Below are positions 5,263-26,855 of a stretch of 64,000 nucleotides of DNA, piece by piece. The notes beneath the pieces are model-generated. The model was not told the DNA's origin and did no database searches. It saw nothing but the letters and a program-made list of their open reading frames with translations. Source of the DNA: Clostridia bacterium (GTDB lineage Bacteria > Bacillota > Clostridia > Oscillospirales > Acutalibacteraceae). Numbering within the stretch: the first letter of the stretch is position 1; every line of letters begins with the position of its first letter. A program made the translations under genes and the position numbers. The stretch is taken from NCBI GenBank assembly GCA_017430535.1, contig JAFRMR010000013.1, positions 1 to 64,000 on the forward strand, read 5' to 3'.

Positions 5263-5919
5263 ATGAAAAGGAACATATATTTATTGCCTATAAATAATGA
5301 TTTTAACATAGTAAAATATAACAATCTTTTAACATTTGTGTCTGAGAAAAAAATCACTCAATTAAATGAATTAAAAAACAATATGGATAAAAAGCTTAGT
5401 TTATATGCACACATTGCAGTTAAACTGATTATTCAAAAAGAACTTAGCTTAGATATTAGTAAAATATCTATTGTATATGATGATTTGGGAAAACCATTTG
5501 TTGAAGATCTCGAGAATACTTTTTTTAGTATTTCCCACACATATGATATGATTGCCATCGCTTTTTCCAATAGTAAAGTAGGCATTGATATTGAAAAAGA
5601 AACTGAAAACAGTGTTGACATAGCAAAATACTTTTTTACTGAAAAAGAAAAAGAGTATATTTCAGTTTCATGTGTTAATCCACAAAAAGCTTTTTTAGAA
5701 ATATGGACAAAAAAAGAAGCTTTTATTAAGTATTTAGGGTTGGGATTACGAAAAAGGTTGGATGACTTTTGCGTTATAAACGACTTCTTGAAAGATAATT
5801 TTTATACCATACAAAGTGACGATTATATTTTAAGTTATTATGATGGCTGTAACAAAGCAGGAATTGAAATAAAAAATATTACTGAAAAAGAAATTGAAGA
5901 ATTAAGAATTAACAGTTGA
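5263..5919 (+). CDS. Sfp-type 4'-phosphopantetheinyl transferase
   Basis: This enzyme moves the phosphopantetheine arm from coenzyme A to a serine of a carrier protein, here most likely the carrier at 7599-7877. The family motifs are present: VGIDIEKE (about residues 105-112) holds the magnesium-binding Asp and Glu, and WTKKEAFIKYLG (about 147-158) is the second signature. I chose the ATG at 5263 because AGAGG lies 8-10 bases upstream; an in-frame ATG at 5236 lacks a ribosome site. The 218-residue length is normal. It is the first gene of the locus, so the cluster carries its own activator. Confidence 0.93.
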   Translation: MKRNIYLLPINNDFNIVKYNNLLTFVSEKKITQLNELKNNMDKKLSLYAHIAVKLIIQKELSLDISKISIVYDDLGKPFVEDLENTFFSISHTYDMIAIAFSNSKVGIDIEKETENSVDIAKYFFTEKEKEYISVSCVNPQKAFLEIWTKKEAFIKYLGLGLRKRLDDFCVINDFLKDNFYTIQSDDYILSYYDGCNKAGIEIKNITEKEIEELRINS

Positions 5920-6153
5920 CATCACTAACTATGATTCGCTTTTGGGTTGCTATAAAAGAAGGATTTTATTAAAATAAAAATTAAAACTGTAATAAAAAAT
6001 TACACAATTGTGGTTTCAAAACTCATATTTAAAGTTCAAATGACTACTTTAAAAAGTCTGCTTTCAAATGAATTCATTTATTGCATGTTTTTTTGCTTTA
6101 TTGTAAAAATTATATGAATTATAAGAGATAATTAATAAAAGGAAAAACTGAAA

Positions 6154-7647
6154 ATGCAAAAAAATGCCAATGACAAAGATGCCTATAAAGAACTGATATC
6201 TCTTTTTTTAAAACCCAATAAGCATTATGTTGCAATTAAAGACTACTCCAAAACTGTTTTTTACTTTGAATTGCAGTCTTTAATCGAAAAATATACAAGA
6301 TTGTTAAAAAAACATGATAATCTTTTAGCTGCCGTTTTTAGATTTAAACGTTCAGCAGATACTATTGCTTTTATACTTGCAGCACTCTTTTTAAGAATTC
6401 CATTTGTTCCATGCAATATTAATACTAAATATGATAAGATAAAGAGAATTTGTAATGATTTGTTTGTTACCGGTTTTTTTTCATTAGAAAAAGATTCTGT
6501 TGTTTTTGTGAATATATATGATAAAGCGATTGTTCCTAGCAAAATAAAAACTCCAATAATTAGGCAAGAAAATGACATTGCATATATAATATTCACTTCT
6601 GGTAGTACTGGTGTTCCAAAAGGCGTAAAAATATCGTACAGAGCTTTATTATCTTTCATAAAAAACATAAGAAGTGAATTTGATTTTTCTGTTTTCGAAA
6701 GATTCCTATGGGTTTCAAGCATTAATTTTGACATTTCTTTGTTGGAAATATTAATTCCAATTATAAACAATAAAACAATAATAGTCGCAGAAGATATTGA
6801 CTTACAGATTCCAACACGTTTAATTAACATTATTAATCGTGAAAAAATTGATTTTTTGCAAATAACTCCTTCCCAATATGAATTGTTGAGGATGTATGGA
6901 TTTGAAGAAAAAATAAATGAATCATTAAAAACTGTGTTCTTCGGTGGTGAGCACATACGAAAAAAACATATTATTGGTTTATTAAAGAAGAATATTCAAA
7001 TATATAACATGTATGGCCCCACAGAAACAACTATTTGGTGTTCATTTAAACATATCAAAGAAACAAATGATCTTTCGATTGGGTTTGGTTTGGGTGAAAG
7101 CCAATTGGCAATAATGCGAAATGGAGTAATACTGTCACCATATGACCAATCAAAGGGCGAGTTAATTGTTTATAGTAATCAGCTTTTTTCGGGATATACC
7201 AATTCTTCTACAGAAGACAGCGAACTTTATTTCTATGAAAATGAAAAAAAATACTATAAAACAGGAGATATTGCTAAATATAATAAAGATAAACAAATAA
7301 TCATTTTGGGGCGTATTGACAATCAAGTAAAGATTAACGGTATTAGAATAGAATTAGAAGATATAGAAAACATAATTGAAATTAAACTTGGAATAAAAAC
7401 AATAGCATTTAAGCCACAACAGTTAACCGGTTTAATTGTTATTTGTCAAGCAAATGACTATAAAGAGAATTTGTTTTCACAGTTAAATAATATACTCTAT
7501 GAATATTATCCTAATGGGGTATTTATTGAACAAATAAAAGCGATTAAATCTTTCCCTTTAAATGAGAATTTAAAAATAGATCGTAATGAGGTGGTTAGAT
7601 GGTTCAAAAAGGAAATCAAACATATGAAAACTGCAGAAAAAGAATAA
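6154..7647 (+). CDS. Stand-alone NRPS adenylation domain, predicted glycine
   Basis: This 497-residue protein should activate an amino acid with ATP and load it on a carrier protein. Core motifs are A3 FTSGSTGVPKG (about residue 147), A4 NFDISLLE, A5 NMYGPTETT (about 284), A7 YKTGD (about 368), A8 LGRIDNQVKINGIRIE and the A10 lysine in NLKIDR. Placing the specificity pocket against GrsA by eye gives D-I-L-Q-F-G-M-I-W-K. This differs at two places from the published glycine code D-I-L-Q-L-G-L-I-W-K. No condensation or carrier domain is fused. The stop lies inside the next gene, so the two are tightly coupled. Confidence 0.92.
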   Translation: MQKNANDKDAYKELISLFLKPNKHYVAIKDYSKTVFYFELQSLIEKYTRLLKKHDNLLAAVFRFKRSADTIAFILAALFLRIPFVPCNINTKYDKIKRICNDLFVTGFFSLEKDSVVFVNIYDKAIVPSKIKTPIIRQENDIAYIIFTSGSTGVPKGVKISYRALLSFIKNIRSEFDFSVFERFLWVSSINFDISLLEILIPIINNKTIIVAEDIDLQIPTRLINIINREKIDFLQITPSQYELLRMYGFEEKINESLKTVFFGGEHIRKKHIIGLLKKNIQIYNMYGPTETTIWCSFKHIKETNDLSIGFGLGESQLAIMRNGVILSPYDQSKGELIVYSNQLFSGYTNSSTEDSELYFYENEKKYYKTGDIAKYNKDKQIIILGRIDNQVKINGIRIELEDIENIIEIKLGIKTIAFKPQQLTGLIVICQANDYKENLFSQLNNILYEYYPNGVFIEQIKAIKSFPLNENLKIDRNEVVRWFKKEIKHMKTAEKE

Positions 7648-7877
7648 TTGATATAGCTCAAAGGCAGTTAAAAACATCTACTATTTTAAACCCTAATGAT
7701 ACTTTTTTATCACAAGGAATACATTCTATATTATTTGTAAAAATCCTTATTGATGTTGAAAATGAATTTGGATTCAAAATTGATGGCGATGAGTTATTGC
7801 TTAATGCGTTCTATTGCCTTGATGATATAGTTTCTTATGTGTTTGGAAGAATTAATTATGATGTTACTCATGAGTGA
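7599..7877 (+). CDS. Stand-alone peptidyl/aminoacyl carrier protein
   Basis: This 92-residue carrier protein has the phosphopantetheine-site serine in SQGIHSILFVKIL (Ser43). The usual pattern LG-x-x-S is relaxed to QGIHS. Helix I and the helix after the serine (VKILIDVENEFGFKI) fit the four-helix carrier fold. Its ATG is preceded by GAGGTGG 4 bases upstream and sits 49 bases inside the adenylation gene, so both proteins are probably made in fixed proportion. It overlaps the next gene by about 20 bases. It is the expected partner of the phosphopantetheinyl transferase and the adenylation enzyme. Confidence 0.9.
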   Translation: MVQKGNQTYENCRKRIIDIAQRQLKTSTILNPNDTFLSQGIHSILFVKILIDVENEFGFKIDGDELLLNAFYCLDDIVSYVFGRINYDVTHE

Positions 7878-9603
7878 ATTATTAAATGATTTTGTTTCTG
7901 TTGAGAAGAATCAATTATTACAAACAAAATATAAGAAAAAAGTATTAAGTAATCATATGTTATTATTCTTTAATAAGGATACAAAAATTATAGAAAACAG
8001 CAAATGGTTGATTATCGTCGAGTCAACATATCTATCGAAAAAAGAGATATTAGAATTATTTGACAAAGTATCCAAAAGAGAATGTATTGATGAATCATAT
8101 TTAAAAGTACTTTTCAAGAAATTTGCCAAGTTTTTTTGCGCAATTATTATTAATTACGAAACAAATGACACTTTTTTAATACGAGATAAAATTGGATATT
8201 ATTCGTTATACTATTACAAACACAAGCGAGGACTAGTAATTTGTGATGATTTGTCTTTTTTTAATTATTTCCCATTTACAAATAGTATAAATGAAGAATA
8301 TATCTATCATAGTTTAACATTATTTTTGTCACACCCAACAACAACTTTATACAAGTCTGTGTACGAAGTTCAACCAAGAAATATACTACATATATCTGGA
8401 GGAAAAGAAAAACTAATTTCTTATGCTTCTTTTAATGAGATTATTGGCCCAAATAATGAAACAAATGAGGAGCTCATTATAAATAGAATGCATAATCTCA
8501 TAAGAAATGGATGCAAAAAATATAATCAACAAGTTTTTACATTGCTGAGTGGAGGAATCGATTCGGGAATAATAGCAGCTTCCTTAGTTGAGAATAACAA
8601 TGACGTTTTAGCTATAACAATTGATTATGAACATAATTCAAAAGAAATTGATATTAAAAACGCAAAAGCAATGGCCAAAAAACTGAATTTACAAAACCAT
8701 CAAATAATTAATGTTACAAACAACGATATTCTCAATACATTTTATTCCATGGTTAATGATAATTATCCACCTATTTTTACTATAGACATGATTATGATTG
8801 AAATAGCAAGCAAAAAAATAAAAGAGATAATGCCTAATAATCCTGTCTGTTTTGCCGGAGACGGAGCTGATGAATTAGGAGGATATCCTTCATATATTGA
8901 CATACAGAATGAATGGGGAAATCTTTTATATTTTTACTCTTTGCCTATTGAAGCAAAAAAGATATTAGTTCAGCAAACTGATTGTAAAGCATATGAAATT
9001 GCAATGAATAATCACCCGATTCCCAGGAAATTTATACAGGCTTTTTATGAATCTGAAAAAAAGATGATTTGGTTAAATGAGTTTCCAACAGTGTCTTCAT
9101 ATGATATTATTGCTAATCAGTTTTATGATGCTGATTTGAATTTTTTTCAAAAAATTCAAAATGTGGAATTTTCATTACGCCTTCCGTCTTTTTATTTTCG
9201 CAGACAATGGCGTCAATACAACGAAAAGAATATTAAGGTGATTTATCCTTTCCTTGATGAAAAACTATTAAAATATTGTTTAAGTCTTCCCCGCGAATTA
9301 CACATGAAAAATAATATCCCCAAATATCTATTTAAAAAGATTTATAAAAGATATTACCCTGATATTAGTATTGATAATAAAAATGGATTTGGAAGTGTTT
9401 TATATAATTTTTATTTAGATGTTTTACCAGGTTTAATTCAAACAGAATTAGCAAATATAAAAAGATATAGTTCGTGTCTATTTAATGAAGACTATATTTA
9501 CTATTTACTTGAACATATTTCAGAAAAAAACAATGGGTTTAAACTATGGACTATATATGCAATAAACCAATGGATTTCTCAACAAAAAAGAAAAACTATG
9601 TAA
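7858..9603 (+). CDS. Asparagine-synthetase-like amide ligase
   Basis: This protein of about 581 residues has an N-terminal domain like the class II glutaminase fold (IRDKIGYYSLYYY near residue 110) and a C-terminal AMP-forming synthetase domain. The PP-loop is LLSGGIDSG (about residue 230) and the later motif is FAGDGADELGGYPSY (about 338). The catalytic cysteine that must follow the initiator Met in true asparagine synthetases is absent, so it probably cannot use glutamine. Members lacking it include the beta-lactam synthetase and lasso-peptide cyclase branches, which adenylate a carboxylate and join it to an amine. ATG 7858 has GGAAG upstream; ATG 7870 is also possible. Confidence 0.88.
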   Translation: MMLLMSELLNDFVSVEKNQLLQTKYKKKVLSNHMLLFFNKDTKIIENSKWLIIVESTYLSKKEILELFDKVSKRECIDESYLKVLFKKFAKFFCAIIINYETNDTFLIRDKIGYYSLYYYKHKRGLVICDDLSFFNYFPFTNSINEEYIYHSLTLFLSHPTTTLYKSVYEVQPRNILHISGGKEKLISYASFNEIIGPNNETNEELIINRMHNLIRNGCKKYNQQVFTLLSGGIDSGIIAASLVENNNDVLAITIDYEHNSKEIDIKNAKAMAKKLNLQNHQIINVTNNDILNTFYSMVNDNYPPIFTIDMIMIEIASKKIKEIMPNNPVCFAGDGADELGGYPSYIDIQNEWGNLLYFYSLPIEAKKILVQQTDCKAYEIAMNNHPIPRKFIQAFYESEKKMIWLNEFPTVSSYDIIANQFYDADLNFFQKIQNVEFSLRLPSFYFRRQWRQYNEKNIKVIYPFLDEKLLKYCLSLPRELHMKNNIPKYLFKKIYKRYYPDISIDNKNGFGSVLYNFYLDVLPGLIQTELANIKRYSSCLFNEDYIYYLLEHISEKNNGFKLWTIYAINQWISQQKRKTM

Positions 9604-9715: not shown

Positions 9716-11365
9716 ATGGAAATTGATGATATTTTTTGGAAAATTCACTGTCAAAATAGTGATGAAAGAATGGATACTCTTAAAAAAGCAATAGATCAAT
9801 TAAAAGTTCAAAACAACATGAAACTCTTTTGCACCTATTTTGAAACTATTTCTTTTTATTACGATCAACTATCTAAGACTTATAAGAATATAGTCTTAGA
9901 TATTTTAGAAGATCTTAAAACTTGTAAAGAATGCCCTGTATGTTGTAAAAAAAATGAATATCTGTTAAATTCAGGAATGAAAATTTCAAGTTTGAGTAGT
10001 TTACCTGAATCAATAAAACATTCTCGCAATTATTCAGATAATTCAAAGACAAACAAGGCTGTTCTCATAGTTCCAGATTTTCTGTCAGCTGCATCTTTTT
10101 TGCAACCACCAATTGACTTCTTGGTTCCTATATCAATTGCAAAAGAAGAAAATGTTGATATGACTATTATCGATAATAGAGTCATGCACTTTTCTTTTGA
10201 AGAATTAAATAATAAAGTTCAAAATATAGAATACATCATAATTACGACTTCTCCTTATGATCATATACAAAATTATTTCATAGACCTAAGATTGAAATTA
10301 ACCTTTAAATTGATTAAATTTTTAAAAAGGAATAATGAGAATAAAACTATTATAGTCTGCGGTGCACATGGCTCTTTACGACCAGATATTGTTCTTAAAG
10401 AAACAGAAGCGGATATAGTTGTTAGAGGAGAATATGATTATTTAATTGTGGACCTATTAAAAAAATTAATGAATAAACAACCTATCGATTCTAATTATGT
10501 TTATACACAAAACGATTATTGCAATAATAAATCCTTCTCTCAATATACACATAGTCTTTATCATTATAATAAGTATTCAAATATACTTCCAACTTATGAA
10601 AACATAAACCTTCAACGATATTTTGAAAATAGGTATGTCAAAAATCGCGTCGTTAAGAAACCAAACCATGCAACAATTTTAGCTTCTAGAGGATGTTATA
10701 GTTGCTGCTCTTTTTGTTTTAATTTTTGGGGCAACAAAGTGAGATATCGAAGTCCTCAAAACATAGTTGATGAAATGGAAATATTGCAAAAAAAACATGG
10801 TGTTGAAGAAATCTTTTTTATTGATGCAACATTTACACAAAATTCAAAATGGGTTCTGAGTATCTGTAATGAGATACGCAAAAGAGATTTAAAAATTGTT
10901 TGGTCTGCAGAAACGAGATGTGACAGATTAAATCCTGAATTATTAACTGAAATGAAAAAGGCAAACTGTAAGTCATTATGGCTAGGTGTTGAATCTTATT
11001 GTAGCTCTGTTCTAAGCAAAAACCAAAAAGCTCCTTCCAATAAATATATTTTAGATGCTGTTCGGCAATGTAAACAATCGAATATAATTCCGCAACAGTT
11101 TATATTAATTGGACTACCGGGAGAAACAGATGAATCTTTGAATGAAACGGTTTGTTATTTAAAAAAATATGGCAGACATTATACCAATTCAGTGATGGTA
11201 GCAACGCCAAGATTTGGAACACTGTTTTATGATTTAGCCCAAAAACAGTTTCCTTTTTTAGGGAATGATTTTTACTCTTTGGGTAGTGTGAAAGGATTAG
11301 TTGGAAACAAATTAACTCCAGAAAAGATAAGAAATGCCGTTTTTGATATTCAAAATATTAAATGA
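9716..11365 (+). CDS. B12-binding radical SAM enzyme
   Basis: This 549-residue enzyme has an N-terminal cobalamin-binding Rossmann domain (about residues 115-250, with VCGAHGSLRPDIVLKE and VVRGEYD). A radical SAM barrel follows (about 315-500). The cluster-binding motif is SRGCYSCCSFCF, reading C-x3-C-x2-C at about residues 326-334. Such enzymes use SAM and a 4Fe-4S cluster to make radicals; many transfer methyl groups to unactivated carbon, others rearrange rings. The first 100 residues carry a CPVC pair and match nothing I know. The substrate may be the carrier-bound aminoacyl group. The nearby SAM synthetase gene fits its demand for SAM. Confidence 0.9.
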   Translation: MEIDDIFWKIHCQNSDERMDTLKKAIDQLKVQNNMKLFCTYFETISFYYDQLSKTYKNIVLDILEDLKTCKECPVCCKKNEYLLNSGMKISSLSSLPESIKHSRNYSDNSKTNKAVLIVPDFLSAASFLQPPIDFLVPISIAKEENVDMTIIDNRVMHFSFEELNNKVQNIEYIIITTSPYDHIQNYFIDLRLKLTFKLIKFLKRNNENKTIIVCGAHGSLRPDIVLKETEADIVVRGEYDYLIVDLLKKLMNKQPIDSNYVYTQNDYCNNKSFSQYTHSLYHYNKYSNILPTYENINLQRYFENRYVKNRVVKKPNHATILASRGCYSCCSFCFNFWGNKVRYRSPQNIVDEMEILQKKHGVEEIFFIDATFTQNSKWVLSICNEIRKRDLKIVWSAETRCDRLNPELLTEMKKANCKSLWLGVESYCSSVLSKNQKAPSNKYILDAVRQCKQSNIIPQQFILIGLPGETDESLNETVCYLKKYGRHYTNSVMVATPRFGTLFYDLAQKQFPFLGNDFYSLGSVKGLVGNKLTPEKIRNAVFDIQNIK

Positions 11366-11870
11366 TTGGAATGAATTATTGATGTGAAATGATAAAGACT
11401 TCATTTCTAAAAAGATTAAAAGAGTTTGTTGCATGGAAGACTATTTGTCAACCGGTTTTTTAAAAACGGATAGTCGTTTATTAATTATACCATCAAGTTT
11501 GCAAACAATAATTACAGTTTTGGACACTGTTTTCGATTTAAAATCTGCGTAGTAGAATACTGATATCAAGGGATTGATATTACTATTATCGCAAATTCCT
11601 TAAATGGTGTTTAATTCGCACTTCTAATCTGTTCAGCCCATATTCAATTAAAAACAATTTATAGAATTAAACATTTAATTGTTCTTTTTCAACATTTATA
11701 TGCCTACAAAGGAACAAAACTTGTAAAGATTATGATATTTTCACCGTTATTGAAAGCAGAGATTATCTTACAACTTTTCTGAATTATTTCAGTGTATTTA
11801 AAATAAGAGCTGCTATTAACACTTTTCTTAATTATTTGTGTTAATGTTTTGCAGCAGAATGGAGCTTATT
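11366..11870. other. Intergenic, probably decayed sequence
   Basis: About 500 bases separate two radical SAM genes. A 39-codon ATG ORF (11433-11552) has no ribosome site. A stop-free stretch ends at the TAA near 11843 but has no start. These look like remnants of coding DNA. No terminator or promoter is clear. Confidence 0.4.
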
Positions 11871-12875
11871 ATGAATAAATTTGAGTTGATTACTCCTGAA
11901 GAAAAAATCAATCGCAAAATACTTCCTTATATGACTTTCCCCATAATAAATACTTGCAACTTACATTGCAAGTATTGCGGAAGTGGAGGTGAAATGACTA
12001 TAAGCAATTCCAATATTTTTAATGTTGAACCACTTGAAAAATGGGTTAATGCTGCTTGTGAACTTGGCATTCAGAAATTTCGTTTAACTGGTGGTGAAAC
12101 ATTTTTGCATCCTGATTTTAAAAAAATCATTTTTGAAGTGTTTAAACATGCAAAAGAATTATTAGTAAATACAAATGGAACTTTAATCACAGAAAAAAAA
12201 GACCTTTGGATTGATTCTCCAAATAATATAAGATACGTTGTCAATTATCATGGTGCAAAAGAATCAACATATGATAAAATCACTGGAACGAAGGGTAAAT
12301 ATAAAATATTAAAAAAGGGAATAGAGTTGTTAGCTAATGAACAATTGCTACATAGATTAAATATAGTTATTTGTAAGGATAACTATGATGAATTGTTTGA
12401 TGTAATCGATTACTGTAGGACAATTGGAACAGATTTAAAAATCCAGGATGTTGTTGCAGTTCCTTGGCAATTTAATGAGTGGAAATCCATTTACTATGAT
12501 ACTAGCGAAATCGAGAAGGAATTGGAGAAACGTTCAAGTAGAATAACTGATCATCGTTATGCTCGAAGTTTTGGTACTCCAACAAAAATATATACAATAA
12601 ATGGTGTCAATGTGACATTCAAAAGCATTAGAAACGGCTCACATTATGAAATGAATACAATTTGTAATAATTGTAAATATTATCCATGCCATGAGGGCGT
12701 TTATGATTTGTTTGTATTTCCAGAAGGCGTTGCATGTGCTTGTAATTGGACGGATTTGGGGAAAGCCAAGGGCCAAACAGAAAAAGAAAAAATAACTTAT
12801 TTAATTGAAAAGTTTCAAGACTCCACATATGTTGAGGCGGACTTAGAAACAATAAAAAATGGAATGTGTTTGTAA
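11871..12875 (+). CDS. Radical SAM enzyme, MoaA/SPASM-like
   Basis: This 334-residue protein has the radical SAM motif C-x3-C-x2-C at Cys29, Cys33 and Cys36 (NTCNLHCKYCGSGGE). The GGE SAM-binding motif (LTGGETFLHPDF) comes next. A second cysteine group near residues 263-300 (TICNNCKYYPC and ACACNW) could hold an extra iron-sulfur cluster, as in the MoaA and SPASM groups. I chose ATG 11871 because GGAG lies 6 bases upstream; the GTG at 11838 has none. Together with the B12 enzyme it points to two radical steps in the pathway. The target is unknown; no obvious precursor peptide lies beside it. Confidence 0.88.
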   Translation: MNKFELITPEEKINRKILPYMTFPIINTCNLHCKYCGSGGEMTISNSNIFNVEPLEKWVNAACELGIQKFRLTGGETFLHPDFKKIIFEVFKHAKELLVNTNGTLITEKKDLWIDSPNNIRYVVNYHGAKESTYDKITGTKGKYKILKKGIELLANEQLLHRLNIVICKDNYDELFDVIDYCRTIGTDLKIQDVVAVPWQFNEWKSIYYDTSEIEKELEKRSSRITDHRYARSFGTPTKIYTINGVNVTFKSIRNGSHYEMNTICNNCKYYPCHEGVYDLFVFPEGVACACNWTDLGKAKGQTEKEKITYLIEKFQDSTYVEADLETIKNGMCL

Positions 12876-14290: not shown

Positions 14291-14386
14291 GATTTTTTAA
14301 TAGTCTTTTATTCTATTGAAAAATGATATATACAGCTATAATAAATCAGCATTTCTACTCTAAATATGTTTATAAAGGAAAAAATC

Positions 14387-17624: not shown

Positions 17625-18773
17625 TTGAAAAAATACTTGTTCACATCTGAATCAGTGACCTGCGGCCATCCCGATAAAATCTGCGACCAGATTTCAGACG
17701 CGGTGCTCGACGCAATTCTTGAACAGGATCCTATGGGCAGAGTCGCCTGCGAAACCTGCTGCACTACCGGCATGGTGCTTGTAACGGGCGAAATATCAAC
17801 AAAGGCAAACATTGACATTCCCGCCATTGCCCGCAAGGTTATTTGTGACATCGGCTATGACAGTTCCGAAAAAGGTTTTGACGGCAACACCTGCGCAATT
17901 ATCACCGCCCTTGACAAACAGTCGGGCGATATCGCTATGGGTGTTGACAGACTGGGTGCCGGAGATCAGGGCATGATGTTCGGCTACGCCTGCAATGAAA
18001 CTCCCGAACTTATGCCTTTGCCGATTTCACTTGCTCACAAGCTTTGCGCAAAACTTACACAGGTGCGTGTTGACGGCGTTCTCCCCTATCTGCGACCTGA
18101 CGGAAAGAGCCAGGTTACCGTTGAATATGACGAAAGCAACAAGCCCGTGCGCGTTGACACGGTTGTTATTTCGTCACAGCACAGCGCCGATGTTGAACTT
18201 GAACAGATACGCAGCGACATTATTGAAAAAGTTATCAAAACAACCATTCCCGCCAACCTTCTTGATGACAGAACCGTATTTCACATAAACCCCACCGGCA
18301 GGTTTGTTACGGGCGGTCCCAACGGCGACAGCGGCCTTACAGGCAGAAAAATCATTGTTGACACTTACGGCGGATACTCACGCCACGGCGGCGGTGCGTT
18401 CAGCGGAAAAGACCCGACAAAGGTTGACAGAAGCGCCGCTTACGCTGCAAGATATGTTGCCAAAAACATTGTTGCTGCGGGTCTTGCCGACAGATGCGAA
18501 ATTCAGATTGCATACGCTATTGGAGTTGATTATCCTGTTTCTATTTGTGTTGAAACCTTTGGCACGGGAAAAGCAAATGATGATGAATTAGTTGATGCTG
18601 TAAAAAAGACATTTGATTTAAAACCTTGTAGTATTATTGAAAGATTTGATCTACGCAAACCAATTTATCGGAAGACAGCCACACTGGGGCACATGGGAAG
18701 AGAGGATTTAAATGTCAAATGGGAAAACATTGATAAGACAAAATTATTAAAAGAACATCTTAAGAGAAGATGA
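17625..18773 (+). CDS. metK: S-adenosylmethionine synthetase
   Basis: This 382-residue enzyme makes SAM from methionine and ATP. Typical blocks are [22 protein letters not shown] (shown as [16 protein letters not shown] at the N terminus), [12 protein letters not shown] (about residues 112-123), [21 protein letters not shown] in the ATP/SAM loop ([13 protein letters not shown] at about 230) and [20 protein letters not shown]. It starts with TTG behind AGAAAGGA. The gene is mosaic: about 17,645-18,515 is near 50% GC, like the resident chromosome, while the last 260 bases are AT-rich, like the neighbours. In this locus it probably supplies SAM to the two radical SAM enzymes. Confidence 0.95.
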
Positions 18774-18812: not shown

Positions 18813-20063
18813 ATGAAAAATGATTCATTAAGAATTTGTGCAGTTGATAGATTTAGAGGGTTTGCTGTATTAGTAATGATAATAATCCAAATATGGAGGG
18901 ATTTTTACAGTTTGGAATTATTGTCACGGTTAGGGAATCATAAAGCAGGTTTAGGATTAACAATTATTAATGGTTTGCAATTCGCGGATGTTTTTGCACC
19001 AATGTTCCTTTTTGCAGTTGCTTTAACTTACAAGCTATCATATGACAATCGAATTAAAGAATTTGGTAAAAAAGAAACTATAAAACACTTTTTAAAAAGA
19101 TATATTTCCTTGATTGGAATAGGTGGAATAATTAGAGCTATAGAATCTATTCTCTTTTATTTTTCAAAAGGTCGTTTTGAACATACAATAGATCCTTTTT
19201 TCTTTTTTGGTTTATTTATTCTATTGTTGATAGTTTTTATTTGGGTTGTTCTGAAATTATTTAAAAAACGAAATAATGAAAATCTGAATAAAATAATCAG
19301 TATAACATCAAAAATCATTTTTGGAATGGTTGCTTATATTGCCTTCCTTTGTCTTGTTGCAACAGCAAGAGATTTTTTTATTCAAATCGTATTTCATAAA
19401 AAATATAGTGAATTTCAAATATGGGGATACTGGGAGGCTCTTCAAGCTATTGGCGCTGCAGGTTTAGTTACTTTAATGTTTATAAAACTAAAAAATTCTC
19501 AAAGGTTTATTGTTGCAACAGTTCTTTTAATTGGATACTCATTATTTCATGAATCTGGAAATAACTCTGACATTATTTCGGTTTACGCTCAACAAGGCGG
19601 TTTTATAGGCATAATTGGTCAGAGTTGTATATTGTTGTTTGGAACTGTATTGGCTGAATTGTTTTTTGCAGACCCCAATAGATTGACAAAATATCTTTTA
19701 GCAATTCCAGGATTCGGGCTAGCTGCAGTTATAGCTTTGCATTATATTTTACCGACAATGCGAAGTGTGAGTCCAAGTTATATCTTACTAAATGTATTTA
19801 TTAGCGGATCTGTCTTTTTATTATTTAAACTATACGATTACATAAATCTTAAGTTCGATATATTGGAACTCCTTGGCAAAAATGCGTTACTTATGTACAT
19901 ATTACAATATATACTGGTATACGGCACTAAAGAAATAATTGGATATCAGTATATAAATAATGCTTCTGATTTGTTTGCTATTTCTTTTACATTTATTATG
20001 CTCTTTATTATGATATTTATAGCATTTTTGCTAGATAAAAAAAGAATAATTGTTAAATTATAG
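18813..20063 (+). CDS. Multi-pass membrane protein, acyltransferase-like
   Basis: This 416-residue protein has about ten hydrophobic helices. It opens with RICAVDRFRGFAVLVMIII, which resembles the start of the DUF1624/DUF5009 group related to the heparan-glucosaminide acetyltransferase HGSNAT and YeiB. Proteins of that group carry acyl groups across the membrane. AAGGA lies before the ATG. Its stop overlaps the next start by one base, so it is coupled to the ceramidase-like protein. The pair might process or acylate the product at the membrane. The assignment rests mainly on the N-terminal motif and topology. Confidence 0.55.
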   Translation: MKNDSLRICAVDRFRGFAVLVMIIIQIWRDFYSLELLSRLGNHKAGLGLTIINGLQFADVFAPMFLFAVALTYKLSYDNRIKEFGKKETIKHFLKRYISLIGIGGIIRAIESILFYFSKGRFEHTIDPFFFFGLFILLLIVFIWVVLKLFKKRNNENLNKIISITSKIIFGMVAYIAFLCLVATARDFFIQIVFHKKYSEFQIWGYWEALQAIGAAGLVTLMFIKLKNSQRFIVATVLLIGYSLFHESGNNSDIISVYAQQGGFIGIIGQSCILLFGTVLAELFFADPNRLTKYLLAIPGFGLAAVIALHYILPTMRSVSPSYILLNVFISGSVFLLFKLYDYINLKFDILELLGKNALLMYILQYILVYGTKEIIGYQYINNASDLFAISFTFIMLFIMIFIAFLLDKKRIIVKL

Positions 20064-21826
20064 TGGATGGTTTTATGTTAAATAAAGAAATAATAATAAA
20101 AACGGAAAATGCAATCAACAAACTGATAAATGTGTTTAATAATAGAATACCTATGCCACCTCATATTAAACATTTAGCTGATATTGAACAACTAACATCA
20201 GGAAAGGGCATTAATTATATATCCGAAACCGACAACTATTGGAAATTAGGGTATAATGAATGCTCAATTAAACCTTTAGACATAGATTCGAAGAGATATT
20301 TTGTAGGAGGAAATATATCAGTTCCTCCCAGAAAAATAACACATGTTATAGATGATATAAAAGTAAGAACGATTGCTTTATCTACTGAGCATAGCAAAGT
20401 AATTGTGTTATCTGTTATTGATTGTATTGGATTATCAAGTCCTTATGTGAGTGTTATAAGAGAACATTTAGCTGATTTTTGTAAACTGAACTCAATTATT
20501 ACAATTAATGTTTTTTCTACGCATTGTCATAGTTCAATAGATTCTTTAGGAATTTGGAGCACAGGTGTAAAAGATTTTTTCTTGAATTATATGAGTGCAC
20601 GTCATGATAAAATCCCCAAGCCTACAATTGACACTTGCTTTATTAATATGGTTCTTAAAAAGGTTGAGGATTCTATAATTGCAGCAGTTAAAAATATGAA
20701 ATTGGGAAGACTATTTTTACTAGAAATTGGCAATAAATCTTCAAATGAAATAAACGAAATAATAAAAAATAGCATTGACACCTATGATAATGAAAAAGAT
20801 TGTGTAAAAAAAGAGCGCTGGCAAAATGAGTTTTCTAAATTAGATATCTCAGAAACTGGTTTATATGAATATATTTTTTCTAAACGATATCCATATGACT
20901 TTTCTCCAAGGATAACAAGAATCCGGTTTAAACCTATAGACGAATCCGTTCGAGAAACTATAATAATTAGTATATCAGCTCATCCTTATTCTAATGGGTT
21001 AAAAATAAGAGGTGAAGGAAAAGGTAACGGCTTATCTGGCGATTTTATTTACTATATGGAGGAAACATTTAACAATAATAATTGCAATATGATTTTTTTT
21101 AACGGCGCTATTGGTGGAATATATCCTAAAAGGAAAGCTGTTAAGGATAGTAAAATTGGATTAAAAGAACAAACAAAGATTATAGGAAACGAATTTGCCG
21201 GGATAGCATTATCAGCAAATATGACATACAAGGAAATACTTTCCAATAAAACAACCTGTCCTTCTGATAAAAGTTTAGCGTACAAAAATGTTATAAACCA
21301 TAAAAAAGCTGATCATCCATTAGAGGAAAAAGAGATTAAGGCGGTATTTAAAACCTGCAACAAGAAAGTTAAATTGAAGTGTTCCAATCCTATTGAACAA
21401 ATAATTGGAAAACTCAATTTAGCCCAATTTAATTTATTCTCTACTCCCACTAAAGATCTATATGTTGGAAGTGAAATAGGTTACATACAACTTGGAAATG
21501 AATTTAATATTGTTTTTGTTCCAGGTGAAATGACTAATAGCTTATTCGATGGACATTACGACTATAAAATGTTCAATAATAGCAACAATAATGTAAATTC
21601 AATAATTGATATTTTCGGGGAAAAAACTGTTGTTTTCGGCTTAGCTAATGATGCAATTGGTTACATTATTCATCCTGATGATTATTGTATGGTCTATGCT
21701 GGGAATGGTTTTTTCTCAAAACTAGTTTTTGGCCAACATTTTACACATTATCAAGAAATATTTTCCTTGGGCAAAGAAACCGCAGGCAAGCTTTTGGTTG
21801 AATACACAGAGCTTTTCAATAATTAA
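20063..21826 (+). CDS. Ceramidase-like hydrolase/amidase domain protein
   Basis: This 587-residue protein resembles the N-terminal catalytic domain of neutral/alkaline ceramidases. Supporting blocks are VRTIALSTEHSKVIVLSVIDC (seen as TIALSTEHSKVIVLSVID), INVFSTHCHSSIDSLGIW, which fits the zinc-binding THTHSGPD-type motif, and a later FFNGAIGGIYPKR block. No signal peptide is present, so it is probably cytoplasmic. GTG 20063 overlaps the upstream stop by one base; ATG 20075 is an alternative. Ceramidase-fold proteins cleave or form N-acyl amide bonds. In this locus it could trim or transfer an amide-linked group. The real substrate is unknown. Confidence 0.6.
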   Translation: MDGFMLNKEIIIKTENAINKLINVFNNRIPMPPHIKHLADIEQLTSGKGINYISETDNYWKLGYNECSIKPLDIDSKRYFVGGNISVPPRKITHVIDDIKVRTIALSTEHSKVIVLSVIDCIGLSSPYVSVIREHLADFCKLNSIITINVFSTHCHSSIDSLGIWSTGVKDFFLNYMSARHDKIPKPTIDTCFINMVLKKVEDSIIAAVKNMKLGRLFLLEIGNKSSNEINEIIKNSIDTYDNEKDCVKKERWQNEFSKLDISETGLYEYIFSKRYPYDFSPRITRIRFKPIDESVRETIIISISAHPYSNGLKIRGEGKGNGLSGDFIYYMEETFNNNNCNMIFFNGAIGGIYPKRKAVKDSKIGLKEQTKIIGNEFAGIALSANMTYKEILSNKTTCPSDKSLAYKNVINHKKADHPLEEKEIKAVFKTCNKKVKLKCSNPIEQIIGKLNLAQFNLFSTPTKDLYVGSEIGYIQLGNEFNIVFVPGEMTNSLFDGHYDYKMFNNSNNNVNSIIDIFGEKTVVFGLANDAIGYIIHPDDYCMVYAGNGFFSKLVFGQHFTHYQEIFSLGKETAGKLLVEYTELFNN

Positions 21827-21927
21827 AACAATGATAATAATTTGTTTTTGTCATTAATAATTAAATTTATAATAATTTATATTCCGCAAACTCAAAAAAG
21901 CCATTGACATAATGAAAGGATTTTAAT

Positions 21928-23718
21928 GTGAAAAAAAGGGTAAAATCATTTTCATTCATCTCAAATTTTAAATTTGTAATAAAAACTACAGAACAATTAC
22001 AGCCCAAAACTTTCTTTTTGTATTTTTTTAGTGTAATAATTGGGACAATTGTTCCTGTTTTCTCAATTTTCATCCCGACATTTCTGCTTTATATAGTTGA
22101 AAAGAATTATTCACCACAAATTGTTGTTGTGTTTGTTTTGCTTATATTAGCAATATCACTTTTGTTAGCATTGCTTGATAAGGTGTTAAACAAAGAATCA
22201 AAAACAAGAATTAGTAATACGGCTAAAACTTTTGATTTGTTATTCGCAAAAAAGATGATGTCTTTGGATTATGAATTGATTGAGGGACCTGTTGGAAGGA
22301 CAAAATATATTAAAGCGAAAAATGCTCTTAACATAAACGGCGTATATGATTATGTGGGAAATTCTCTCAACGTGGTAATACAATTATTTGGATTTGTTTT
22401 CTCATGTGGAGTTATCTCTTTTTTAAATCCATTTGTTTTTTTACTAATCATATGTGCACAAATTTTGTTACTTATGGTATCTTACATTGAGCAAATCTAT
22501 ATCAACAGAGGAAAAGATAGAAGAGCCTTAATAGATCGGCATATAATTGAAATATCAAAAACTGCTGGTGATTATGTTGCAGCAAAGGATATTCGCTTTT
22601 TCTCTTTAAGTAAACTTTTAAAAAAAACAAGCGAATACTTTATAAATAGAAAAAAAGAAGAATACAACAAAATTTACTCTATTTATTTTATTACTGATAT
22701 AGCTAGTCAATTGATTTCTGTTTTTATCACCGCAGGTACATATGGATTTTTATTTTATATTTTGTTTAAAAAAGGACTAACTGCCTCAGAATTTAATTTT
22801 TATTTAACTTCAATTCTTAGTTTTGATATTTGGATAGGTAAACTTGTTCAATCGCTCGATCTTTTAAAGCATTCTCATTATTGTGTTTCTGATTTAAGAG
22901 AATTTTTTGATCTTGAAACTATTAATGAAACAAGAGAGTATAAGACCTTAGAATACTTTAATAAGCCTCAAGATATAGAAATATGCAATTTGAGTTATAA
23001 ATACACTGGTTCAGATAAAAAAGCATTATCTAATATCAATCTAACCATAAAAGCTGGAGAAAAAATAGCAATTGTTGGTTTAAATGGTGCTGGAAAAACA
23101 ACCCTAGTGAAGTTATTATGCAATTTATACACATGCTCATGTGGGGAAATAAAGCTAAATGGTATAAATATTAACCAATACAAAAAACAAGATTACTATA
23201 AATTATTCTCTGCTGTCTTTCAGGATAGTAGATTCTTGCCAACATCTATTGCTTCTAATATTTCTAACTTGACGTTCGAAGAAACAGACTGTGCTAAAGT
23301 GAATGAGGTTATTGATGAGTCGGGACTTTCTGAAAAAATAAAATCTTTAAAAAATGGTTATAAAACGACACTTATTAAAAATATTGATGAGAGTTCAACC
23401 GATTTGTCAGGGGGAGAACAGCAAAAGCTTCTTCTTTCCAGAGCGTTATATAAAAATTCTCCGTTTTTGATTTTAGATGAACCGACTGCCAGTTTGGATC
23501 CAATATCCGAAAACGAGTTGTATTTAAAGTATAACAATTTAGCAAAAAATAAAACGGTAATATTTATTACGCACAGACTTTCAAGTACAGGTTTTTGTGA
23601 TAGAATCGTTTTTTTAGATCAGGGAGAAATTATTGAAACTGGAACCCATGATGAATTGATTGCTAAAAATGGAAAATATGCACAACTTTTTAAACTTCAA
23701 GCCCAATATTATGAATAA
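21928..23718 (+). CDS. ABC exporter, fused permease-ATPase (1)
   Basis: This 596-residue half-transporter has a six-helix membrane domain (about residues 25-320) and an ATPase domain. Walker A is GLNGAGKTT (about 383), the signature is LSGGEQQK (about 493) and Walker B is FLILDEPTASLD (about 512). It starts with GTG behind GAAAGGA. The next gene begins directly after its stop, and the two proteins are similar in layout, so they probably form a heterodimer that exports the cluster product. Confidence 0.93.
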   Translation: MKKRVKSFSFISNFKFVIKTTEQLQPKTFFLYFFSVIIGTIVPVFSIFIPTFLLYIVEKNYSPQIVVVFVLLILAISLLLALLDKVLNKESKTRISNTAKTFDLLFAKKMMSLDYELIEGPVGRTKYIKAKNALNINGVYDYVGNSLNVVIQLFGFVFSCGVISFLNPFVFLLIICAQILLLMVSYIEQIYINRGKDRRALIDRHIIEISKTAGDYVAAKDIRFFSLSKLLKKTSEYFINRKKEEYNKIYSIYFITDIASQLISVFITAGTYGFLFYILFKKGLTASEFNFYLTSILSFDIWIGKLVQSLDLLKHSHYCVSDLREFFDLETINETREYKTLEYFNKPQDIEICNLSYKYTGSDKKALSNINLTIKAGEKIAIVGLNGAGKTTLVKLLCNLYTCSCGEIKLNGININQYKKQDYYKLFSAVFQDSRFLPTSIASNISNLTFEETDCAKVNEVIDESGLSEKIKSLKNGYKTTLIKNIDESSTDLSGGEQQKLLLSRALYKNSPFLILDEPTASLDPISENELYLKYNNLAKNKTVIFITHRLSSTGFCDRIVFLDQGEIIETGTHDELIAKNGKYAQLFKLQAQYYE

Positions 23719-25581
23719 ATGGTGAATTATCAAATGATTAAAAAAAGATTAAAAATTGATTCTATAATTAGAGGTATTAAGCTCGTTAATTTATTAATGC
23801 CCAAATATATACCAAACATGGTTTTATTTGTTGTTTTTTCTTCAATTCCTATATATACAAACATATTTTTTTCCGCAAAAATAATTGATGAGGTAATTGG
23901 CAAATGCAGACTCAAGTATTTATTACTTTACCTTGTTGTAATGGTTATTATTAGTATTTTTTTTACTTTAATCAGCAAATTTGGTTGGAAATATGTAAGA
24001 GTAAATCAATTAATATCAGGAGATTGGGAAGACAGTTTTCTTAATCAAAAAAGCTTTACCTTGGATTATGAACAAATTGAAGATAACAAAGTGAGAGAAT
24101 TACGTCAACAAATTACCGATAATCGTGAATTTGGCGGTCTTAATGTGTTAGTTATTAGAACAACATATTTAATTAAAAGTCTCCTGAATTTGATAATCTC
24201 TTTCGCCATGATAGTAAGTATTTTTAAGATTCGTTCAGTTCCATCTTGTCGCGGCTTGCTCGCTTTTGCCAACTCAAGCGCTTGTTCTTTTATCCTTTTT
24301 GTTTTAACTATTCTGTTAGCTGTGTTCTTAGGATATAATGCACAAAAAGGAATTCACTTAAAATCAACGAAATCAAAAGAATTATCTACAACTCAAAAGA
24401 AAGCACATTTTTTAATTGATGAGTATCTTTCTGACAACAAAACAGGAAAAGATGTTCGTATTTATTCTCAAGAAAAAATCATTATAGAAATAATAAAAGG
24501 AATGTTGAATAATTATTCCTTAATTAACAGACAATTTATATCACTGCAATTTAGTGTTGACAATAAAATTACAGTTATCAATTTGATTCTTAATTCTTGT
24601 GTTTATATCATAGTTTCTTTAAAAACAATTGCTGGTACTTTTAGCTTAGGTGTAATGTTAAAATATATATCTTTAATCAGCCAGTTTTTACGCAATGTTG
24701 TTAATTTGTCAGATTCAATTGTAAGACTGCAAGAAAACAATTTATATCTTAAGAATTTATATGAATACTTAGATTTAGAAACAAAAACGGATAAAAATGG
24801 AACATTTCATGCTCTTCCGAGCGACCATTTTTCAACTCTTAAGTTTATAAATGTCAGCTTTAAATATCCACATCATAAGGAATTTGCACTACAAAATATT
24901 TCATTTGAGATAAAAAAAGGAGAACGCGTTGCTATTGTAGGAAAGAATGGCTCCGGGAAAACAACATTAATAAAGCTTTTGTGTCGGCTTTACGATCCAA
25001 CCGAAGGGATTATTACTTTGAATGATGATAATATTAAAAATTATAATTATTCTGATTACTTAAATGCATTTTCCGTTGTTTTTCAAGATTATAGATTGTT
25101 TCCTCTAACTATTGGCCAAAACATATCCGCCAGTGACCAGTATGATAAGAATAGAGTAATAAAGTGTTGCAACTTGGTCGGACTAAATAATTTTATATAT
25201 GGCCTTCCAAACGGTTTAGAAACAAATATTTCAAAAGATTTTGATGAAAATGGCATTATTCTCTCTGGAGGGGAAGCCCAAAAAATTGCAATAGCAAGAG
25301 CACTTTATAAAAACAGTTCGATTGTTATCTTAGATGAACCAACCTCTTCCCTTGATCCGTTATCAGAGTCAGAAATATATGCAGACTTTAACAGAATAAT
25401 TAAAAATAAAACGGCAATATATATATCACATAGATTATCCTCTTGCAGATTTTGTGACAAAATTATAGTGTTAGATAAAGGAAATATAGTTCAAATAGGC
25501 AACCACGAATCACTACTGAAAGATAAGGATAATCTATATTATTCCCTATGGAATGCCCAAGCTCAATATTACAATATGTAA
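23719..25581 (+). CDS. ABC exporter, fused permease-ATPase (2)
   Basis: This 620-residue second half-transporter has membrane helices in about residues 20-345. Walker A is GKNGSGKTT (about 407), the signature is LSGGEAQK (about 515) and Walker B is IVILDEPTSSLD (about 536). Its ATG touches the stop of the first transporter gene and the following gene starts directly after its stop, which points to one operon. Both nucleotide sites keep the main motifs, so neither half looks degenerate. Confidence 0.93.
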   Translation: MVNYQMIKKRLKIDSIIRGIKLVNLLMPKYIPNMVLFVVFSSIPIYTNIFFSAKIIDEVIGKCRLKYLLLYLVVMVIISIFFTLISKFGWKYVRVNQLISGDWEDSFLNQKSFTLDYEQIEDNKVRELRQQITDNREFGGLNVLVIRTTYLIKSLLNLIISFAMIVSIFKIRSVPSCRGLLAFANSSACSFILFVLTILLAVFLGYNAQKGIHLKSTKSKELSTTQKKAHFLIDEYLSDNKTGKDVRIYSQEKIIIEIIKGMLNNYSLINRQFISLQFSVDNKITVINLILNSCVYIIVSLKTIAGTFSLGVMLKYISLISQFLRNVVNLSDSIVRLQENNLYLKNLYEYLDLETKTDKNGTFHALPSDHFSTLKFINVSFKYPHHKEFALQNISFEIKKGERVAIVGKNGSGKTTLIKLLCRLYDPTEGIITLNDDNIKNYNYSDYLNAFSVVFQDYRLFPLTIGQNISASDQYDKNRVIKCCNLVGLNNFIYGLPNGLETNISKDFDENGIILSGGEAQKIAIARALYKNSSIVILDEPTSSLDPLSESEIYADFNRIIKNKTAIYISHRLSSCRFCDKIIVLDKGNIVQIGNHESLLKDKDNLYYSLWNAQAQYYNM

Positions 25582-26682
25582 ATGTTCAAAACAAAAAGGT
25601 TAAATTTTTTTATGAATAATAAAACTTATATGCATTCTAAGGTTTTACCTCTTGGTAATGATTCTCCGATAAAAAATGACCTTATGTTATATATTGAAAC
25701 TGAGGCTTTATTAAGTAACCCAAAGACTATTGATTCTGCTCAAGCTTGGTATATGACGAATTATACTCAGTTTTATTCTTTAAGTTCACGAAAAACAAGC
25801 ATGCATAAATCCAATTTTTATAAAAGTGTTCAAATACATCAACCGAAAAACCCGTTTATTAAAGAGAAAATAACAACTGTATTGTTTTATAATTCGTCCA
25901 CAATTCTTAATTATATATTTGATTCTATTAACAAGGGAAGATATGTAAAAATCCTACTTGACCATTTTTATCTTCCAGGATATGGGTACTATAAGAGCAA
26001 ACATGTTTATCATACGGAATTTATATTTGGTTATGACTTAAACAAAAGAGTTATATATGTAATTGGTAGTAATATATTAAAAATGGGCGGATTTAATCGT
26101 TCAGTCATTAGTTTTGACAGTTTTATTGAATCATATTTTTCTTCAAAAAAAGCACACTCTTTTCATACTATAACTGCATTATCTATCAACGAAAGTAAGA
26201 CATATATTTTTAATATCAAAAAAATGTATAAAGGTATCATTTCGTTCTATAATTCCAAAATGCGACTTTATGATAGGATTCGTTTATCAAATGATATTCA
26301 TAGCATTTTTAAAGTCTTTGGATTAGCTACATATCAAGTGATTAGCAACGTTTTAAGGGATGAGTTTAAAATGGAAGAAGACACCTACCTTAAATCAATC
26401 AAATATTTACAAGCATTTGCGGATTACAGAAAGGTAATGCTTCAAAGAATAAAGTATTTATATGATAACGATTATTTAACAAGCAGCTGCTATGATGTTC
26501 TTATTAAGAACTATACAGATTTGATAGAAGGATTTACTATTGTAATTAATCTGTATCTGAAAAACTATTTTTCACCAAATCCTCACAATGAAGATGTTAT
26601 ATTAAATCATTTAGATTGTTTGTATAATTTAGAAAAACAGGCTCTTTTTAAATTGATTACATGTCTTAAAGCATATATTTAA
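25582..26682 (+). CDS. BtrH-like acyltransferase-type protein
   Basis: This 366-residue protein has a central block VKILLDHFYLPGYGYYKSKH, then VYHTEFIFGYDLNKRVIYVIG (about residues 128-157). It resembles the N-terminal domain of butirosin protein BtrH, a C39-peptidase-like fold that moves an acyl group from a free acyl carrier protein onto an amine. The His (YHTEF) is there, but I see no N-terminal cysteine in the usual place, so a classical Cys-His pair is doubtful. It starts right after the second transporter gene; ATG 25612 is an alternative start. A transfer step from the stand-alone carrier would fit this cluster, which has no condensation domain. Confidence 0.55.
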   Translation: MFKTKRLNFFMNNKTYMHSKVLPLGNDSPIKNDLMLYIETEALLSNPKTIDSAQAWYMTNYTQFYSLSSRKTSMHKSNFYKSVQIHQPKNPFIKEKITTVLFYNSSTILNYIFDSINKGRYVKILLDHFYLPGYGYYKSKHVYHTEFIFGYDLNKRVIYVIGSNILKMGGFNRSVISFDSFIESYFSSKKAHSFHTITALSINESKTYIFNIKKMYKGIISFYNSKMRLYDRIRLSNDIHSIFKVFGLATYQVISNVLRDEFKMEEDTYLKSIKYLQAFADYRKVMLQRIKYLYDNDYLTSSCYDVLIKNYTDLIEGFTIVINLYLKNYFSPNPHNEDVILNHLDCLYNLEKQALFKLITCLKAYI

Positions 26683-26693
26683 AGGTGACTGAA

Positions 26694-26855
26694 ATGATGA
26701 ACAATTTCCCTTTTATGAATAGAAAGGAAAGAGTAGCTTTTGCTTTCATATTTATAGTTACTTGCTTTCCTTTTTTTATGTTTTGCATTATAAGATATTT
26801 TTTAGCAAAAATAATTGGACTGCTTCCTTCAAACAATAACAATAATGATAGTTAG
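26694..26855 (+). CDS. 53-residue membrane peptide
   Basis: A short gene with an AAAGGTGA ribosome site 6 bases before its ATG, 11 bp after the BtrH-like gene. The product is a 53-residue peptide with one hydrophobic helix (VAFAFIFIVTCFPFFMFCII, about residues 14-33), a basic N-terminal end (NRKER) and an asparagine-rich tail. I do not recognise it. It could be an immunity or transporter-accessory peptide. A precursor-peptide role is less likely, as no leader/core boundary is visible. Confidence 0.6.
   Translation: MMNNFPFMNRKERVAFAFIFIVTCFPFFMFCIIRYFLAKIIGLLPSNNNNNDS

Follow-up and report, generated by a model that had tools for sequence, protein, structure and literature searches.

A Candidate Carrier-based Biosynthetic Cluster with an agr Locus, Carried by an Integrative Conjugative Element in tRNA-Met of a Ruminant-gut Clostridia Genome

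Introduction

The butirosin side-chain pathway works with a free carrier (BtrI), a small amino-acid unit, and an acyltransferase (BtrH) that uses a catalytic Cys. AsnB-like and nucleotidyltransferase (NTase) genes also occur in lasso peptide clusters. The 64,000-nucleotide stretch analyzed here (the window; positions 1 to 64,000 of contig JAFRMR010000013.1, Clostridia assembly GCA_017430535.1) contains a cluster of 15 open reading frames (ORFs) in which genes resembling several of these parts stand beside a paralogue of methionyl-tRNA synthetase (MetRS). One earlier report describes MetRS paralogues in neighborhoods that also hold carriers, BtrH-family proteins, and an AsnB-related ATPase (PMC2922099), and another ties MetRS-paralogue proteins to N-N bond formation (PMC8664883). 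We put at roughly 60% the probability that the window holds an agr-linked biosynthetic cluster, that this cluster is cargo of an integrative conjugative element in tRNA-Met of a Clostridia genome from a ruminant-gut genus, and that it follows the course proposed below. The likely product of the gene set is a small, exported molecule derived from an amino acid.

The Cluster Is Cargo of a Conjugative Element

The cluster is cargo of a conjugative element integrated at tRNA-Met, as is evident from an integrase at the tRNA gene, att repeats, a relaxase, and type IV secretion genes, the last two scanned in contig C31 of a second genome (G013). This contig differs from window positions 1-43622 by 3 mismatches in 43,622 bases, followed by 11 mismatches in 43623-43947. 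It carries 50-bp copies of the tRNA 3' part at 79438-79487 and 99319-99368, and between the att copy of the window and the first C31 copy lie genes for a relaxase, a topoisomerase, PrgI, a VirB4-like protein, a coupling protein, and ParB. Where it can be measured, in C31, the element is ~79 kb. In the window's own genome (G000), its left part lies past the contig end and only pieces are seen: a 4,965-bp contig is 100% identical to C31 positions 72890-77854, and a stretch of 62 bp in contig C6 matches the att region exactly. The same ceramidase-like (CerN-like) gene is present at 100% in JAFRQM010000037.1, from a goat omasum metagenome-assembled genome.

C31 may be chimeric at its end. It terminates in the start of a UxaC gene that is 98% like the window over 548 aligned bases, G013 has its own UxaC gene on contig C23 at 72%, and between the C31 far tail and the own-genome stretches fetched there are just two matches, of 69-74%. 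A second att-bounded stretch (C31 79438-99368) lies in tandem behind the first at the tRNA-Met repeat. Beside the first att copy is an ORF that looks integrase-like by eye. A related junction (89.8%) is found in the own genome at C6 positions 3376-5220.

The original prediction mentioned neither this element nor the agr quorum-sensing locus upstream of the cluster. AgrB, AgrC, and AgrA are joined by an AgrD, assigned by eye, with a Cys-containing core NSPCVLFLHQPIVPE. The genes agrB, agrC, and agrA are oriented divergently to the cluster, with 901 bases in between. We infer that agr controls the cluster.

The 15 plus-strand ORFs occupy 5236-26682. The co-directional gene set of the original prediction is real, although its span of 5263..26855 does not coincide with the ORF boundaries. 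Packing is tight: the ORFs of the adenylation domain, carrier, and AsnB-type ligase overlap, the HGSNAT-like and CerN-like genes share 1 base, and the two ABC exporter genes and the BtrH-like gene abut. GC content is 29.3% over the cluster, 28.5% in window positions 1-5200 on the agr side, and 47.5% in 43950-64000; individual cluster genes are 26-33% GC, metK excepted.

Most of the predicted functions are borne out by Pfam matches above cut-off, namely a 4'-phosphopantetheinyl transferase (PPT), a free adenylation domain, a free carrier, an AsnB-type ligase domain, two radical S-adenosylmethionine (SAM) proteins, a PF14907 NTase, a MetRS-like protein, MetK, an HGSNAT-like protein, and two ABC exporters. 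With adenylation domain, carrier, and PPT each above its cut-off, the locus has the makings of a carrier pathway like those of nonribosomal peptide synthetases (NRPSs). Canonical NRPS condensation and thioesterase domains are absent from Pfam scans of the 15 cluster ORFs, as had been stated. Directly 3' of the BtrH-like gene, positions 26962-28311 hold two small ORFs with no family match above cut-off, which may belong either to the cluster or to the element.

Table 1. Coordinates of the agr locus, the cluster genes, and the integration site in the window
Feature	Position	Strand	Evidence
Pheromone precursor (51 aa), agrD-like, with strong ribosome site AAAAGGAGG	1444..1599	-	ORF directly after agrB; family by eye
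AgrB	1596..2204	-	PF04647 123.6 bits
AgrC-type sensor kinase	2330..3619	-	PF14501 71.9 bits; NCBIfam AgrC model 41.7 of 500 bits
AgrA-type LytTR response regulator	3624..4334	-	PF04397 69.8, PF00072 64.6 bits
4'-Phosphopantetheinyl transferase	5236..5919	+	PF01648 59.2 bits
Free-standing adenylation domain	6154..7647	+	PF00501 143.9 bits
Free-standing carrier protein, Ser in GIHS	7599..7877	+	PF00550 36.4 bits
AsnB-type PP-loop ligase	7858..9603 (likely start; listed ORF from 7837)	+	PF00733 100.3 bits, C-terminal domain
B12-type radical SAM protein, CYSCCSFC	9716..11365	+	PF04055 76.1 bits
MoaA-like radical SAM protein	11838..12875	+	PF04055 64.2 bits
Orphan protein	13226..14290	+	No relevant family match
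NTP_transf_5 nucleotidyltransferase-like protein	14366..15499	+	PF14907 108.2 bits
MetRS-like protein of KASSS clade	15523..17454	+	PF09334 221.6 bits; tree and motifs
MetK paralogue	17625..18773	+	Three Pfam domains; NCBIfam TIGR01034 589 bits, cut-off 309
HGSNAT-like membrane acyltransferase	18813..20063	+	PF07786 27.5 bits (HGSNAT_cat), cut-off 22
Neutral-ceramidase-like (CerN-like) amidohydrolase	20063..21826	+	Via relatives; signal peptide not seen by eye
ABC exporter 1	21928..23718	+	PF00005 109.6 bits
ABC exporter 2	23719..25581	+	PF00005 117.2 bits
BtrH_N-related protein, divergent family	25582..26682	+	PF14399 17.5 bits, below cut-off 29.7
Tyrosine integrase of mobile element	42274..43449	+	PF00589 86.8 bits
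att repeat (3' part of tRNA-Met)	43542..43591		Identical 50 bp at G013:C31:79438-79487
tRNA-Met, integration target	43547..43622	-	Adjoins integrase

A Core That Recurs in Other Clostridia

One shared carrier-based pathway is likely for part of the gene set, because in other Clostridia the BtrH-like family associates with carriers, NTases, and radical SAM genes. Relatives of the BtrH-like protein are found in 16 other genomes (380 searched). Loci from 11 of these 16 were compared, using leave-one-out profiles, with 89 controls whose mean length was nearly the same (79 CerN and 10 KASSS loci). By uncorrected p values, carriers are present in 6/11 BtrH-like loci versus 1/89 controls (p 2.6e-6), NTases in 3/11 versus 0/89 (p 0.001), and radical SAM genes in 4/11 versus 4/89 (p 0.005). 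One related locus, L251, carries agrB, agrC, agrA, an AgrD-like ORF, a carrier, a radical SAM gene, two ABC exporters, and a BtrH-like protein; the adenylation domain recurs in another, L254. The single carrier pathway of the original prediction is supported for this part of the set; the full set was seen only on the same element.

Membership of the BtrH family proper is not supported. The window protein falls short of the PF14399 cut-off, relatives with a PF14399 match likewise stay below it (17-27.5 bits), and an alignment of 14 BtrH-like sequences, 15-21% identical to the window protein, has no conserved Cys. A PDB profile search with this alignment gave a best E value of 0.03, a single-sequence search gave no PDB match, and a single-sequence fold reached a pLDDT of 44.

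In L248, L251, and L256, the BtrH-like domain has an extra N-terminal domain resembling polysaccharide deacetylase, below cut-off, in which DDG, which we take to be the usual motif of that family, reads EGG, HGG, or VGG. L248 and L251 also hold a subtilase-DUF1611 protein. L253 and L256 share a recurring cassette of an S24-PqqD fusion, a radical SAM gene, a carrier fused to a longer domain, an NTase, and a BtrH-like protein, of which a literature search found no description.

Loading and Modification of the Carrier

The closest solved relative of the adenylation domain is the linear gramicidin synthase LgrA. Its 10-residue code, read by eye, is DILIFGMIWK, 7/10 the same as DILQLGLIWK, presumably the reference code for glycine at what we take to be the code positions. 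The amino acid loaded is perhaps glycine.

The AsnB-type ligase retains SGGIDS and GADE. Its listed start at 7837 lies inside the carrier gene and has no ribosome site, whereas the ATG at 7858 is preceded by GGAAGA; a start there leaves the protein without an N-terminal Cys. MCG is present in 10/10 family AsnB proteins compared. Loss of the glutaminase is only probable, because the longer ORF begins Met-Cys and aligns with the family Cys.

CX3CX2C is found in both radical SAM proteins. In the first, the radical SAM assignment of the original prediction is secure and the B12 part weak (PF02310, 17.4 of 32.1 bits). It scores 109-131 bits against the NCBIfam HpnJ, BchE, and rSAM_ladder_B12 models, all below cut-off, and its top PDB match is an apramycin biosynthetic oxidoreductase (6fd2, E 9e-12). 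The second scores up to 103 bits against MoaA models, again below cut-off. A single-sequence search with the NTase gave no PDB match.

The next gene product had been called dikinase-like. No pyruvate phosphate dikinase or PEP-utilizer domain is found: Pfam offers nothing relevant even with the limit relaxed to E<=10, NCBIfam gives no match within E<=0.01, PDB matches are at chance level only, and plasmids give none. Its single-sequence fold is uninformative (pLDDT 34), and a search of 398 genomes of the phylum returned the protein itself and two matches at E 0.003-0.005.

The KASSS MetRS-like Protein

The MetRS-like protein is neither a housekeeping MetRS nor a cupin-type hydrazine synthetase, the latter because of its partners and its place in the tree. 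The predicted MetRS paralogy is confirmed: the protein belongs to a distinct clade with KASSS in place of KMSKS, and a canonical MetRS stands elsewhere in the genome, as it does in 11/11 other carrier genomes tested. The HIGH motif is kept as HFGH, and the canonical MetRS equivalog model gives 238 of 587 bits. The methionine-pocket motif is altered: WPESLWAP is found in 13/13 KASSS proteins where canonical enzymes have WLDA or similar, and FYG stands for FHS.

In a tree of 21 proteins, the 13 KASSS proteins form one clade (100/100) on a stem of 3.64 changes per column, and the window protein groups with two from G084 and G332 (100/100). Canonical MetRS falls outside the clade, the outer order being unsure because branches are long. 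A separate group of three (99/98), also on long branches, comprises proteins from Pantoea (cupin gene adjacent), Streptomyces (SidA-type monooxygenase adjacent), and R. etli, near which no cupin is listed. Neither cupin nor lysine N6-monooxygenase partners are found by Pfam among the cluster ORFs. The two nearest kin of the window protein (L030, L031) have a degraded HIGH motif, YFHY and YFHH.

MetRS-like matches at E<=1e-60 occur in 30/394 genomes of the order, own included, with listed identities of 43-60%, and KASSS is read in 19 of the 29 others. The relatives looked at lie in housekeeping neighborhoods, with a GluRS-like gene (by eye) nearby in 4/11 genomes compared. RefSeq lists members from Ruminococcus albus, Monoglobus, and Collinsella as "class I tRNA ligase family protein"; a GluRS-like gene is near 2/3 of these records, and a literature search under that name found no paper. 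Proximity of the two genes is frequent in gut Firmicutes (L226, L227, L052, L059, L063, L064).

MetK, HGSNAT-like, and Ceramidase-like Proteins

The metK gene has 46.9% GC and 46% GC3, an outlier among the cluster genes, and its product is 75% identical to the other MetK of the same genome; it therefore seems to have been recruited recently. L246 (genome G183) contains at 12593-12739 a fragment of metK with 73% identity to a portion of the window MetK. This fragment adjoins two BtrH-like genes and one carrier gene, and metK may thus have reached this kind of setting on two occasions.

The predicted ceramidase-like protein has no Pfam match itself and finds weak backing through its relatives: of four scanned, two give 31.7 and 19.5 of 32.1 bits for PF04734 and two give nothing. 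H154, H156, H307, E489, and Y534 are invariant across eight aligned CerN-like sequences and are, we assume from neutral ceramidase, candidate metal residues. An N-terminal signal-like stretch, seen by eye in 5/7 aligned relatives, is missing from the window protein. A single-sequence search gave no PDB match.

Distribution of the Gene Set

Co-occurrence across genomes, to which the original prediction looked for support, was not found: the full set was seen only on the same mobile element, in the own genome and G013. It therefore cannot show that the MetRS-like, MetK, CerN-like, and HGSNAT-like proteins share a pathway. Among 60 relatives, the B12-type protein is found in the own genome and in G013 at 100%, the next listed match being 32%. 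For the AsnB-like protein in 349 genomes of the family, the matches listed likewise include these two, and the others listed are <=28% identical. Ten of 394 genomes of the order have CerN-like matches, own included, and the 4/10 neighborhoods fetched, in G000, G417, G245, and G074, lack the cluster. For the MetRS-like protein in the same 394 genomes, 11/29 other neighborhoods were fetched (one, L061, only 6.9 kb) and none has the cluster. A CerN alignment profile run against genome contigs gave at least 80 loci, comprising the G013 element and 79 without the cluster. In one locus, L219, an ordinary CerN has an agr-ABC unit close by.

Searches of viral contigs for the cluster gave no match. Plasmid searches with the B12-type, orphan, AsnB-like, and MetRS-like proteins revealed no cluster among the matches listed or opened. 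The best two B12-type plasmid matches lie in other neighborhoods, the Streptomyces one with an AMP-binding and an AsnB gene nearby, and one BtrH-like plasmid match stands beside NRPS genes of Paenibacillus sp. 37. In the open-access literature, no characterized cluster with this gene set was found, in agreement with the original prediction.

Proposed Pathway and Its Alternatives

We infer a mobile pathway of an undescribed type that would modify an amino acid on a carrier, with every chemical step, the substrate, and the order predicted from the genes. The PPT would activate the free carrier, onto which the adenylation domain would load a small amino acid, glycine being the best guess. The B12-type and MoaA-like radical SAM proteins could then modify the carrier-bound unit, and the AsnB-type ligase, probably without glutaminase, would link this unit to another amine through an amide bond. 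As in related loci, the product, whether still bound to the carrier or already transferred, may be acted on by the BtrH-related protein and the NTase. A second building block is probably turned into an aminoacyl adenylate by the KASSS protein. MetK, probably added recently, would supply SAM, and the HGSNAT-like and ceramidase-like proteins may add and remove an N-acyl group. The paired ABC exporters would send the product out, with agr controlling the timing.

Several points weigh against this course. The substrate code of the adenylation domain was read by eye at presumed code positions. The AsnB start is uncertain, and a start at 7837 puts at residue 2 a Cys that MAFFT aligns with the MCG Cys of 10/10 family AsnB proteins. 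The GC content of metK is unlike that of its neighbors (47% in a 29% cluster), and the BtrH_N match is below cut-off. The association test covers 11/16 genomes, is uncorrected, ignores relatedness, and uses profiles built after the loci were inspected. Plain tblastn gives a weaker signal: carrier 1/11 versus 0/89 (p 0.11), NTase 2/11 versus 0/89, radical SAM 2/11 versus 1/89, and ABC exporter 5/11 versus 12/89. The complete set was seen only on this element, and descent as one pathway is unproved for the adenylation-domain, MetRS-like, MetK, HGSNAT-like, CerN-like, AsnB-like, B12-type, and orphan genes.

An alternative is that the cluster is a patchwork. A core of adenylation domain, carrier, radical SAM, ABC, and BtrH-like genes would then serve agr-linked export of a small product, and the MetRS-like, MetK, HGSNAT-like, and CerN-like genes would be other cargo of the element, unrelated to this core. 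Such an origin is possible but not favored. It would explain why related loci repeat only the carrier, radical SAM, NTase, ABC exporter, and BtrH-like genes, and once agr or an adenylation domain; it would also suit the different GC of metK and the housekeeping neighborhoods of the CerN-like and KASSS relatives looked at. On the other hand, the genes share a strand, mostly short gaps or overlaps, and, except for metK, a narrow GC range, and the missing signal-like stretch of the CerN-like protein is what recruitment to an intracellular pathway would be expected to leave. A different role for two of these genes would be self-resistance: the MetRS-like protein and MetK, whose counterparts both bind methionine, would be copies insensitive to a methionine antagonist made by the cluster. 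The two paralogues do stand side by side, each with a further genomic copy of its kind, and the two MetK proteins are close in sequence. We consider this unlikely, given that the KASSS clade is a separate paralogue with a long stem and a changed pocket (WPES for WLDA, FYG for FHS), that KASSS relatives in the fetched loci stand without such a cluster, that the canonical MetRS is retained in every genome tested, and that MetK could equally serve two SAM-consuming enzymes.

Other biosynthetic classes fit less well. An AsnB-like cyclase with a radical SAM maturase would be at home in a ribosomal peptide cluster of the lasso or sactipeptide kind, which shares AsnB-like and NTase genes, and the S24-PqqD fusions of L253 and L256 point the same way; this is nevertheless improbable here, because no PqqD or leader peptidase is found among the cluster ORFs, no convincing precursor was seen by eye in the ten gaps read, and the lasso cyclase model gives 53 of 525 bits. 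Formation of an N-N bond through the MetRS-like protein, as in a hydrazine pathway, would draw on the precedents cited in the Introduction (PMC2922099 and PMC8664883). It is very improbable for this cluster, whose ORFs include no cupin or lysine N6-hydroxylase and whose MetRS-like protein is separated in the tree from the three proteins of the hydrazine group included.

If the agr-linked carrier pathway is as proposed, a ruminant-gut lineage has an uncharacterized way of making a small metabolite for export, one coupled to cell density and placed on an element able to move between cells. The pathway would also draw attention to two protein families, the KASSS MetRS-like clade and a divergent BtrH-related family associated with carriers. 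A bolder proposal, offered tentatively and with considerable doubt, is that the KASSS protein founds a class of tRNA-independent aminoacyl-adenylate enzymes, derived from an uncharacterized paralogue present across gut Clostridia. Together with radical SAM enzymes, an AsnB-type ligase, and a free carrier, it would serve a pathway that agr controls and a conjugative element spreads.

Comparison with Known Systems

The cupin/MetRS-like hydrazine synthetases (Spb40, PyrN, Tri28) resemble the window in having a MetRS paralogue within a biosynthetic cluster and a canonical MetRS elsewhere. The window differs in lacking the cupin and the N6-lysine hydroxylase, in clade, and in the loop, which is KASSS rather than the KFSTS of the three hydrazine-synthetase-group proteins compared. 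The RefSeq KASSS proteins of Ruminococcus albus, Monoglobus, and Collinsella belong to the same clade as the window protein at 42-47% identity, but occupy housekeeping neighborhoods.

Free-standing NRPS adenylation/carrier pairs, and DltA/DltC, share with the window an adenylation domain, carrier, and PPT above cut-off. The window differs in its AsnB-type ligase and in having no condensation or thioesterase domain, and its adenylation domain gives 175 of 560 bits against the DltA equivalog model. The butirosin side-chain pathway is similar in its free carrier, BtrH_N-related protein, and small amino-acid unit, but the BtrH_N match in the window is below cut-off and relatives share no conserved Cys. 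To our knowledge, the AsnB-type ligase, MetRS-like, and agr parts have no counterpart in butirosin biosynthesis.

Among the clostridial loci L246, L248, L251, L253, L254, and L256, the fetched stretches have no tblastn match (E<=1e-3) to the B12-type, AsnB-like, MetRS-like, HGSNAT-like, or CerN-like proteins of the window, and by the same threshold MetK is represented only by the fragment in L246. In place of these extra genes, S24-PqqD fusions are present in L253 and L256, along with longer carrier fusions. What these six loci share with the window is up to five gene types, the carrier, radical SAM, PF14907 NTase, ABC exporter, and BtrH-like genes, to which L251 adds agr.

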